A stretch of DNA of 39,968 nt from Acidobacteriota bacterium (GTDB lineage: Bacteria > Acidobacteriota > Vicinamibacteria > Vicinamibacterales > CAVVIG01), in NCBI GenBank assembly GCA_017883165.1, contig JADGOC010000017.1:1-39968 (forward strand), written 5' to 3'. A program made the position numbers and the translations under genes. Below, in pieces: positions 31,511 through 36,199 of the stretch. The notes under the pieces are model-generated. The model saw nothing but the letters and a program-made list of their open reading frames with translations. It had not been told where the DNA came from and made no database searches. Positions within the stretch are counted from its first letter, which is position 1. The number at the start of each line of letters is the position of its first letter.

Positions 31511-31618
31511 GGTGATGGGGTGATCGGGTAATGGGGTGACGTTGGAGATGTGGGGATGACAGGCAATTCCATCACTCCATCATCCCATCACCATATCACC
31601 ACATCACCACATCTCATG
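31511..31618. repeat. Inverted pair of octanucleotide arrays between hemW and the DnaC-like gene
   Basis: Six 8-base units of the type GGTGATGG (31511-31558) face six units of the type ATCACCAC (31571-31618), separated by 12 bases. The two halves are complementary in pattern and could fold into a long imperfect stem. The stop of the DnaC-like gene lies in the last unit, and the hemW ATG two bases before the first. Confidence 0.85.
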
Positions 31619-32465
31619 ATCCCGCCCGTCCGCCTGGCCATTTGAGATCGGCGCGGCCGTCGCGGACCGCCGGCTCGCGCAATTGCGCGCGCGCGGTGCG
31701 GCCGGCGCGCGAGGGCAGCGTCTTGCGGCGCATCTTCCAGAGCGCCATGAGGTCGTCGACGCCGCCATTGACGGGCATCTCTCGGTAGTCGGCGCCGTCC
31801 ATGACAATGAACTCGCACATCTCATGTAGGCGCGACCGCATCCGAAAACCGATCCGGAACAGCAGCGAGTTCGGATCGGTGTCGTCGGGAATATCCATGT
31901 AGTTGGACGTGAAGATCGTCGCCCGCCGCTCGTTGTACCGCGTGTTGACGATGAGGTTCATCGTCTCTTCGACCCATTCGGAGGTCTTTTCCGCGCCCAG
32001 ATCGTCGAGAACGAGGAGATCCGCTTTCATGACGGGCCTGAGGATCTCGAGCTCGGTGGTCCGGATTGACGGATCGTACGTGCTGCGGATGACGCGGAGC
32101 AGATCGCGCGTGTCGTAGTAGAGGCCGCGCGCTCGAGAAGACTGCATGACCTGCTTGAGGACGGCGACCGCGAGATGCGTCTTGCCGACGCCCGGCTGCC
32201 CTTCCAGAAACAGTCCCTGCCCCACCACCGGAAAAGCCTCGGCGAGTCGGCGCGCTTTCGTGACCGCCTTTTCGAGCGACTCGTTGTAGGCGGTGAAATT
32301 CTCGAGCGTACAGTGCTGGTAGCGCTTCGGGATGTTGGCGTCCGACAGATGTTGGCGCCCGACGTTCTCGCGCCAGCAGTCGCAACGGACGACGCGGCGG
32401 ATGCCGTTTGCTTCGTTCTCGCCAACGGGCTTCCAGCCCGTGTCGTCGCAGAGGGGACACGACAT
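31614..32465 (-). CDS. DnaC/IstB-like AAA+ ATPase, putative helicase loader
   Basis: The 283-residue protein has an N-terminal zinc-binding motif (C3, C6, C28, C30), then a DnaC/DnaI-like ATPase core: Walker A GQPGVGKTH (89-97), Walker B LLVLDDLGAEKTSEW (D154, D155), sensor 1 TSNY, and an arginine-finger region FRMRSRLHEMC. DnaC-type proteins load the replicative helicase DnaB; IstB relatives serve transposases. No istA or other transposase is nearby, so a helicase loader is more likely. The basic C-terminal tail (about 245-283) is not conserved in the family. The gene follows hspR by 42 bases and ends inside a repeat array. Confidence 0.82.
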   Translation of the reverse strand: MSCPLCDDTGWKPVGENEANGIRRVVRCDCWRENVGRQHLSDANIPKRYQHCTLENFTAYNESLEKAVTKARRLAEAFPVVGQGLFLEGQPGVGKTHLAVAVLKQVMQSSRARGLYYDTRDLLRVIRSTYDPSIRTTELEILRPVMKADLLVLDDLGAEKTSEWVEETMNLIVNTRYNERRATIFTSNYMDIPDDTDPNSLLFRIGFRMRSRLHEMCEFIVMDGADYREMPVNGGVDDLMALWKMRRKTLPSRAGRTARAQLREPAVRDGRADLKWPGGRAGS

Positions 32466-32507: not shown

Positions 32508-32933
32508 TCAGGAAGTTTTCTTGCGCGCGGGCTCGGCGGCGTCGCGCGCGGGCGGCGGCGCGCGGACGAGATCGGTCGGCGACGACTTGACGAGCGCGGT
32601 CGAGAGGCGCTGCTCCCAGTCGTCGATCCCGCGCGCCATCTCGCCTTTGACGTACTCCATGAACTCGTTGACCTCGTGCTGCATTAGCTCGATCTTCCTG
32701 CGCATGTTGAGGATGATTTCGACGCCGGCAAGATTCACGCCGAGATCTCGGGTCAATGACAGAATCGTCTCGAGCTGTTCGAGGTCCTCTTCCGAGTACA
32801 GGCGCGTGTTGCCGTCGGTGCGCGACGGTTTCAGGAGGCCTTCGCGCTCGTACAGCCGCAGCGTCTGCGGGTGGATGTTGTACTTCTGCGCCACCGCGCT
32901 GATCATGTAATACGCTTTGCCGGGTTTCTTCAT
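32508..32933 (-). CDS. hspR: HspR-like MerR-family heat-shock repressor
   Basis: HspR represses the dnaK operon by binding HAIR sites, with DnaK as co-repressor in Streptomyces. The 141-residue protein has a MerR-type winged helix: MISAVAQKYNIHPQTLRLYE (about 10-29), REGLLKPSRT, NTRLYSEEDLEQL. A helical segment follows (about 55-110), and a basic Pro/Ala-rich tail (PARKKTS). MerR metal-binding cysteines are absent, as expected for HspR. The order dnaK-dnaJ-hspR repeats the Streptomyces operon without grpE. A HAIR-like sequence before dnaK supports autoregulation. Confidence 0.88.
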   Translation of the reverse strand: MKKPGKAYYMISAVAQKYNIHPQTLRLYEREGLLKPSRTDGNTRLYSEEDLEQLETILSLTRDLGVNLAGVEIILNMRRKIELMQHEVNEFMEYVKGEMARGIDDWEQRLSTALVKSSPTDLVRAPPPARDAAEPARKKTS

Positions 32934-32953: not shown

Positions 32954-33027
32954 CACAAAGGGCACAACGGACACAAAGGGAGAGACCCTATGTTGTTCTT
33001 CCTTGGTGTCCTTGATGTCCCTGGTGG
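32954..33027. repeat. Inverted pair of nonanucleotide arrays at the dnaJ end
   Basis: Three 9-base units of type CACAAAGGG (32954-32980) and three of type CCTTGGTGT (33001-33027) face each other over 20 bases. The second set is read as the C-terminal codons of dnaJ, whose TAG lies in the loop. Confidence 0.8.
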
Positions 33028-34115
33028 TGAATCAGCTCCCGTCGTACATCTTCGCTGTTAATCTTCCCGAACTCCCGCAGCAGCTCTTTCGACCGTTCAT
33101 CGAGGAGCTTCGGCAGCACGAGGCGCACCTCGACGACCAGGTCCCCGCGGCGTCCATCGCGCGGTGACGGCACCCCGCGCTCACGCAGCCTGAAGCGCTG
33201 GCCCGACTGCGTGCCGGGCGGCACGCGCAACCGCGCGGGACCATCGAGCGAGGGGACGTCGACCTTCGCACCGAGCGCCGCTTCGTGAACCGCCACCGGC
33301 ACGACGAGATGAAGGTCGTCGCCGTCCCGCCGGAAGAGCGGATGCGGCTCCACGTGCACGCTGATGAACAGATCGCCCGTCTCCCCGCCGTTCGGCCCGA
33401 CGTGACCCATGCCCGCTACCCGGACGCGCGCAAGGTCGGCCAGCCCGGGCGGCACCTGAATCGTCAGCGGCTCGCTGCGTACCTCGAACTGTTGACCGCC
33501 ACAGGTCGGGCACATGATCTGCTGCTGGCGTCCCGACCCGCCGCAGTGCGCGCACGGCTTCGAGAACACCATGTGTCCCCTCGCCGACTTCACGGCGCCC
33601 GTCCCATGGCAGTGCGTGCAGCGACTCTCGTTGGTGTGCAGCCGGCCCGCGCCCTGGCACGTGTGGCAGCGCTCCTGCCGCGTGACGGTGATCGGGCGCT
33701 GCCCGCCGCGCATCGCTTCCTCGAAGCTGAGCGTGATCGCCTGATGCAGATCCGCACCGCGCTCCGCTTCGCCGTGCGCCCGACGCGCCTCGCGTTGCTG
33801 CAGCACATCGGCAAACAGATCGCCGAAGGTGGACGCCGACGCCCCGCCCACCTTGACCGAGAAATCGAACCCCTCGAAGCCGAACGCCGACTCTTCGATC
33901 GTCGCGCCGCTCGGCGCCCCGGCGTCGTACCGGCGGCGCCGCTCCGGATCGATCAACGTCTCGTACGCGTCCGCGATCTGTCGGAACTGCGCCGCCGCCA
34001 TCTTATCCCCCGGGTTGATGTCCGGGTGATGGCGGCGCGCGAGCCGCTTGTACGCCCGCTTGACGTCGCCAAACGAGGCGTCGCGATCGAGGCCCAGAAC
34101 GATGTAGAAGTCCAT
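32988..34115 (-). CDS. dnaJ: DnaJ co-chaperone
   Basis: DnaJ delivers unfolded clients to DnaK and stimulates its ATPase. The 375-residue protein has a J-domain with HPD at 30-32, a Phe/Gly-rich linker (about 75-100), the zinc domain with four CxxC pairs (C150/C153, C166/C169, C188/C191, C202/C205), and two beta-sandwich client domains to about residue 350. The fourth zinc motif is CPTCGGQQ and lacks the usual final GxG. The last 13 or so residues, HHQGHQGHQGRTT, come from a 9-base repeat and are not part of the fold. It starts nine bases after dnaK and is cotranscribed with it. Confidence 0.94.
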   Translation of the reverse strand: MDFYIVLGLDRDASFGDVKRAYKRLARRHHPDINPGDKMAAAQFRQIADAYETLIDPERRRRYDAGAPSGATIEESAFGFEGFDFSVKVGGASASTFGDLFADVLQQREARRAHGEAERGADLHQAITLSFEEAMRGGQRPITVTRQERCHTCQGAGRLHTNESRCTHCHGTGAVKSARGHMVFSKPCAHCGGSGRQQQIMCPTCGGQQFEVRSEPLTIQVPPGLADLARVRVAGMGHVGPNGGETGDLFISVHVEPHPLFRRDGDDLHLVVPVAVHEAALGAKVDVPSLDGPARLRVPPGTQSGQRFRLRERGVPSPRDGRRGDLVVEVRLVLPKLLDERSKELLREFGKINSEDVRRELIHHQGHQGHQGRTT

Positions 34116-34124
34116 GCGCCCCGG

Positions 34125-36047
<1,923 letters not shown>

Positions 36048-36090
36048 TGAATACCTCGTCGTCGTTGATTCGCAGGCTGATACTGGTTTA

Positions 36091-36119
36091 AGTATGAAAC
36101 CTGAGTGAAACGCTGTCAA
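36091..36119 (-). promoter_or_regulatory. Promoter of dnaK-dnaJ-hspR
   Basis: On the minus strand a perfect -35 TTGACA (36114-36119) and a -10 CATACT (36091-36096) are spaced by exactly 17 bases. The start near 36084 would give a leader of about 37 bases. Confidence 0.65.
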
Positions 36120-36120
36120 C
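36100..36120 (-). promoter_or_regulatory. HAIR-like operator for HspR
   Basis: GTTGACA-N7-ACTCAGG matches the HAIR consensus CTTGAGT-N7-ACTCAAG in 10 of 14 positions with exact spacing. The left half overlaps the -35 hexamer, so bound repressor would block RNA polymerase. The hspR gene lies downstream in the same operon. Confidence 0.5.
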
Positions 36121-36151
36121 CTGTGGCGTTCTGGTTGCCAAATTCAGGTGT

Positions 36152-36157
36152 TATACT
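36152..36157 (+). promoter_or_regulatory. Candidate -10 element of the FecR-domain gene
   Basis: TATACT, five of six consensus matches, 43 bases before the ATG at 36200. No good -35 stands 16-18 bases upstream. It faces away from the dnaK promoter. Confidence 0.3.
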
Positions 36158-36199
36158 GCTTCCGCCAGCTACTCCTGCCTTCCCTCGACGAGGCGGCCT

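Follow-up and report, generated by a model that had tools for sequence, protein, structure and literature searches.

The dnaK promoter of this acidobacterial genome carries a HAIR-like dyad that, judging from comparative sequence analysis, very probably serves as operator for a self-regulating HspR switch. The span concerned, positions 36091-36120 of the window (the whole 39,968-nucleotide stretch of DNA that was analyzed), runs from the -10 to the -35 of dnaK. This operator varies a known theme; the new part, and the one worth testing, is a second cluster in the same genome, hspR2-dnaJ-clpB, with an operator of its own.

The dnaK gene lies on the minus strand at 34125-36047 (641 codons including the stop; NF001413, 1031.7 bits). 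Its real start is the ATG at 36047, which has a GAGG upstream; the mechanical open reading frame (ORF) starts at a TTG at 36119 that falls in the -35 box, and gene callers could misplace the dnaK start there. On the same strand, dnaJ (32988-34115) follows 9 bp 3' of dnaK, and a gene for a MerR-type regulator, hspR1 (32508-32933), follows 54 bp 3' of dnaJ. The first-pass annotation placed hspR in the dnaK operon, and the gene indeed stands third in the order dnaK-dnaJ-hspR, linked to chaperone genes as expected of an HspR. HspR1 passes the NCBIfam HspR equivalog model NF047375 narrowly (105.7 bits, or 106.4 in the genome search; cut-off 105), and the 25 matches among solved structures are all MerR-family proteins, none of them named HspR. 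A DnaC/IstB-like ATPase gene (31614-32465, minus strand) comes next after a gap of 42 bp; based on this gap and the common strand, it is possibly co-transcribed with the operon. Rfam gave no match at the gathering threshold anywhere in the window.

A close copy of HspR1 is present in 26 of the 27 family genomes, and an HspR 83-97% identical to it is encoded in 24 of the 80 named loci, which by eye overlap with the family genomes. Other families of the phylum provide further examples of the order dnaK-dnaJ-hspR (e.g., L236, L237, L238, L247 and L252). Across the phylum, an HspR match at E ≤0.001 was obtained in 118 of 119 genomes, many of these matches being weak, with 30 of the 119 above the cut-off. 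An HspR 77-85% identical to HspR1 is also found in public records under the titles Bifidobacterium breve (L163), Cyanobacteria (L135), Acidimicrobiia (L133) and Woeseiaceae (L188); these labels look wrong.

Upstream of dnaK, on the minus strand, a -35 hexamer TTGACA (36114-36119) is separated by 17 bases from a sigma-70-like -10 hexamer CATACT (36091-36096), which ends 43 bp 5' of the ATG and is also seen in the family alignment. The pair scores 10 of 12 promoter matches, and one such site was found in 501 bases versus 0.1 expected from shuffles. TT[GT]ACA is exact in 17 of the 24 aligned family orthologues, and the other seven have a TTGACA-like hexamer. The dyad, here O1 (36100-36120, minus strand), consists of GTTGACA, a spacer GCGTTTC and ACTCAGG; compared with the HAIR consensus CTTGAGT-N7-ACTCAAG, it matches 4/7 positions on the left and 6/7 on the right, with the N7 spacing exact. 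The annotated HAIR-like sequence, with 10 of 14 consensus positions over a perfect TTGACA, is thus present; as a HAIR operator, however, it keeps the right half-site ACTCA (36102-36106, minus strand, within the -35/-10 spacer) and not the left arm, which is TTGACA rather than CTTGAGT. We therefore term it HAIR-like, not HAIR. Because the left arm of O1 coincides with the -35, its conservation is not independent, and the independent evidence comes from the right half-site and from a second half-site, O2. A TATAAC-like element at 36130-36170 of the window has counterparts 5' of some dnaK orthologues (e.g., in L046 and L047) and may be the -10 box belonging to the divergent gene.

Taken alone, the dnaK dyad is hardly more than chance would give: sequences with 10 of 14 HAIR positions occur at seven places in the window, and among 5000 simulated regions of 152 bases, 4.9% score 10 or more. 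HAIR is not enriched genome-wide (39 places at ≤3 mismatches versus 107 for a reversed control pattern), so a consensus scan would have missed the dnaK site. As a method control, the HAIR scan finds two 12/14 sites before dnaK of the actinobacterium Nonomuraea, and an 11/14 and a 10/14 site in Nocardia. A 20-position pattern combining promoter and half-site (≤3 mismatches) has a single match in 4.24 Mb, the dnaK1 site, with none for the control; built from the dnaK1 promoter and its orthologues, this pattern demonstrates uniqueness and is not independent support. It revealed no further HspR1 target of this exact layout in the genome.

Loss of the dyad before dnaK in relatives had been named as evidence against HspR control; instead, the right half-site is kept, with its 7-base spacing, across the family, the further named loci and other families of the phylum. 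Within the family, ACTCA-N2-TTT[TC]AT keeps a constant distance to a TTGACA-like hexamer in 24 of 25 dnaK1 upstreams, while most bases between vary. This set derives from 26 upstreams, one of which (L075) was read as dnaK2 and excluded; the sole upstream without the motif (L079, G022) comes from a contig carrying a broken dnaK. Because the 24 remaining rows were aligned on the half-site, their logo displays conservation around an anchor. We also anchored 65 promoters, the 24 family rows and 41 further named loci, on the -35 and -10 only, which keeps the motif out of the alignment. The 41 are named loci lacking a by-eye match to the 27 family genomes, and some may still be family members; 23 of the 80 named loci had no usable dnaK start and were left out. 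A 17-base spacer was found in 57 of the 65 anchored promoters, and in 49 of these ACTCA stands precisely 13 bases downstream of the first -35 base. The exact pentamer is absent from 14 of the 65, eight of which have GCTCA, GCTAA or ACTAA. The 57 promoters contain 53 distinct N6 strings, so close relatedness does not explain the conservation of ACTCA. Among other families of the phylum, 12 of 14 dnaK promoters contain TTGACA-N7-[AG]CT[AC]A (20 stretches around HspR were fetched, and six without a dnaK start were left out), with the half-site contributing to the anchor score in one of the two scans. The arrangement thus looks old in the phylum.

In ten of the 41 further named loci (L133, L135, L141, L143, L145, L146, L157, L162, L166 and L168), the -10 ends just 6 bases before the dnaK ATG. 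At those loci this placement would give a dnaK mRNA without a leader, controlled by the same operator.

The second half-site, O2, is TATCA at 36078-36082 on the minus strand, 24 bp downstream of ACTCA and near the expected transcription start. At offset 24, a pentamer [AG]CT[AC]A or [CGT]AT[AC]A was found in 21 of 24 promoters of the family set and in 9 of 13 of the phylum set, but in 11 of 38 further named loci, where O2 is thus weaker. Other offsets from 11 to 39 score at most two rows each in the family and phylum sets, whereas offset 13 scores nine in the named set. Of the 79 promoters, four had weak anchors (L150, L151, L169 and L253) and do not enter these counts, and the half-site formed part of the anchor score in the scan at 24 bp; the scans free of half-site or motif anchoring are the -35/-10-anchored promoters and the two scans with the HspR2 pattern described below, in this genome and in the phylum.

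The same 24-bp period appears at dnaK2 (G000:C224:72237-72279; L080, L293), which is 74% identical to dnaK and has HAIR-like half-sites flanking its -35. Relative to the -35, these half-sites lie at -15 and +9, versus +13 and +37 at dnaK1. In 20 dnaK2 rows, aligned on the downstream half-site and hence displaying conservation around an anchor, AC[TG][AC]A occurs 24 bp upstream in 14, TGAGT as its left arm in 12, and both in seven. Within this genome the tandem pattern matches dnaK2 only, with two mismatches. Based on these sequence features, dnaK2 is likely another HspR1 target. By-eye inspection of the upstream region of a third dnaK-like gene (C321) showed no similar half-sites.

These data bear on two readings of the dyad that involve no repressor. 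A chance match would agree with the simulations, about 5% of which reach 10/14, but the dyad is conserved at a fixed position across genera and families and is thus more than chance; we find a chance origin scarcely credible. Very improbable, in our judgment, is the reading in which a sigma factor recognizes ACTCA as part of the promoter. It would fit the conservation of TTGACA and the -10 and their overlap with the left arm, but O2 is located beyond the -10, and the half-sites shift relative to the -35 between dnaK1 and dnaK2 with their 24-bp period kept, which is unexpected for a sigma element and possible for an independently binding protein.

Under the HspR1 reading, dnaK, dnaJ and hspR1 would be transcribed together by housekeeping-sigma RNA polymerase, which would read TTGACA-N17-CATACT. 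An HspR1 dimer is predicted to bind O1, across the -35 and the spacer, and a second HspR unit would probably bind O2, 24 bp on and near +1; occupancy of O1 and O2 together would exclude polymerase. Because hspR1 belongs to the operon, it would repress itself. Work on Streptomyces describes DnaK as a co-repressor of HspR. DnaK is likely the co-repressor here as well, and heat would lift repression, probably as misfolded protein draws off DnaK. The proposal that HspR controls the heat-shock response of dnaK, made in the first-pass annotation, thus gains support from the conservation of the half-site together with the gene order.

A CIRCE element at dnaK, in place of an HspR operator, would have pointed to HrcA, which is present in the genome (283.9 bits). 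CIRCE (TTAGCACTC-N9-GAGTGCTAA) is, however, absent at dnaK: at ≤3 mismatches it occurs at two places genome-wide, neither on the contig of the window. One is directly 5' of hrcA and the other at the start of groES-groEL, and on this basis CIRCE was rejected as the dnaK operator. It appears that dnaK is under HspR, and groES-groEL and hrcA are under HrcA.

The second protein above the HspR cut-off in this genome, HspR2 (G000:C334; 105.3 bits), is encoded by the first gene of a cluster; dnaJ comes next, followed by a gene for a protein with a Clp N-terminal domain, which is cut by the edge of the fetched stretch. The cluster is divergent from a TerC-family gene. In another family of the order (L267), the third gene of the cluster encodes a full ClpB-type protein, and a ClpB signature is present in six of the seven hspR2 loci of the order; in the remaining one (L259), the gene was not called by the ORF picker. 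The scan near clpB that had been suggested gave a different picture: clpB is preceded by the gene for a second HspR, and that gene has an operator of its own. In the family, the hspR2 promoter reads TTGAYACG-N3-CGTATCAA or near, with GTATCAA in 17 of 17 rows and TTGA in 16 of 17, the rows being aligned on the motif and so displaying conservation around an anchor; L257 was outside this set, and its site was found in the phylum scan. The hspR2 promoters (L083 and 16 others) are also strongly conserved outside the dyad, from the -10 onwards (TATACTTGGATCGGCGCAA), and this stretch is probably a second HspR2 contact.

The HspR2 site (≤1 mismatch) was found in nine of the ten genomes of the order, each time directly upstream of hspR2; in the remaining genome (G002), only HspR1 was found. 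Further HspR2-type places with one mismatch, besides those at hspR2, occur in G000:C271 and G095:C197. Outside the order, the site occurs at six places in 5 of 109 genomes, all inside mechanical ORFs of at least 120 aa; we take these as chance matches, a weak argument since such ORFs are common in GC-rich DNA. A reversed control pattern gave one match in 119 genomes. In this genome alone, the HspR2 pattern has 11 forward and 13 reverse places, versus 1 and 2 for the control: the place with one mismatch lies inside a long ORF that is peptidase-like by eye, the place with two mismatches lies near the start of another gene, and those with three mismatches were partly inspected (L196, L199 and L206).

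A tree of 90 rows places HspR1 and the other acidobacterial HspRs in one clade and HspR2 in another, each with 98/98 support, although the columns are few and long branches call for caution. The protein set omitted L087, L091, L093, L095 and L097 (too short) and L244, and L273 was added later. Both proteins score above the NF047375 cut-off (106.4 and 105.3 bits), yet they fall in these separate clades. Directly after HPQTLR, 63 of 65 HspR1-clade rows have L and all 19 HspR2 rows have K; the wing reads GNTR in 64 of the 65 former rows and GSMR in 18 of the 19 latter. These differences may be tied to the difference between the operators. An origin of HspR2 by duplication of HspR1 within the order is not favored, as HspR2 forms a separate clade that lies nearer to three actinobacterial HspRs, a weak placement (95/76, midpoint root) subject to the same long-branch warning.

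With HspR2 encoded in the same genome, ACTCA might be bound by HspR2, or by an unknown factor, while HspR1 acts elsewhere. We regard this as improbable: HspR2 has its own, different conserved operator, the dnaK half-site occurs in phylum genomes with one HspR match above 90 bits among the matches listed, and the HspRs extracted from 19 of the 20 phylum stretches (not L244) all belong to the HspR1 clade. It is less unlikely, though still doubtful, that HspR1 and HspR2 share both operators, such that two operator forms would not amount to two separate circuits. The two operators do have a frame in common, TTGA-N11-TCA(A), and HspR of Helicobacter tolerates poor HAIR matches. Against sharing, the inner bases are conserved within each operator set and differ between the sets (TTGA-N11-TCAA encloses GT/AC in HAIR and YACG/CGTA in the HspR2 site), and the HspR2 site is nearly confined to the order, its few places elsewhere lying inside ORFs. 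On balance we lean toward two insulated HspR switches in the order. HspR1 would act on dnaK-dnaJ-hspR1 and probably dnaK2, through ACTCA half-sites in a 24-bp phase, and HspR2 would act on hspR2-dnaJ-clpB through its own site; the common frame with other inner bases would then represent two operator codes of one regulator family in one cell, splitting folding (DnaK) from disaggregation (ClpB).

The dnaK switch would extend repressor-based heat-shock control to a large, little-cultivated phylum. HspR1 and HspR2 are a natural paralogous pair whose operator forms differ at few bases. This pair allows direct tests of the DNA code of HspR and of how one heat-shock regulon splits into two. A search by title and abstract found no literature on HspR in Acidobacteriota among the matches listed, and none on HspR2 or a two-HspR arrangement; in both cases coverage was mostly of journals other than subscription journals.

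Actinobacteria have grpE between dnaK and dnaJ in the Streptomyces-type order dnaK-grpE-dnaJ-hspR. Here, the gap between these two genes is just 9 bp, with no grpE in it. The likeness to Streptomyces and other Actinobacteria consists of a MerR-type HspR in the dnaK operon and a HAIR-like N7 dyad at the dnaK promoter. Here, in contrast, the left HAIR arm is replaced by the -35 box, and the half-sites follow a 24-bp phase, whereas the spacing between the best two HAIRs upstream of dnaK is 51 bp in Nonomuraea (L272) and 54 bp in Nocardia (L273). More generally, two studies describe HspR as binding imperfect HAIR dyads at promoters and recruiting further units beside a central site (PMC6102357, PMC7464140), and in Helicobacter and Campylobacter these units are described as spreading cooperatively from the central dyad. 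Helicobacter pylori and Campylobacter jejuni further resemble this genome in having HspR and HrcA together, in HAIR sites that match the consensus poorly and in the binding of several HspR units at one promoter; here, however, CIRCE is at groES-groEL and hrcA rather than at dnaK, so HspR and HrcA appear on separate promoters. An HspR outside Actinobacteria, which the first-pass annotation had emphasized, does occur in this acidobacterium, but the literature already reports HspR control of heat-shock genes in Helicobacter, Campylobacter and Deinococcus as well as in Actinobacteria. Deinococcus radiodurans offers a further likeness in its HspR control of dnaK, clpB and other genes. One HspR (dr_0934) is named there for all of them, whereas in the present genome clpB comes after the gene for a second HspR, whose operator is different.
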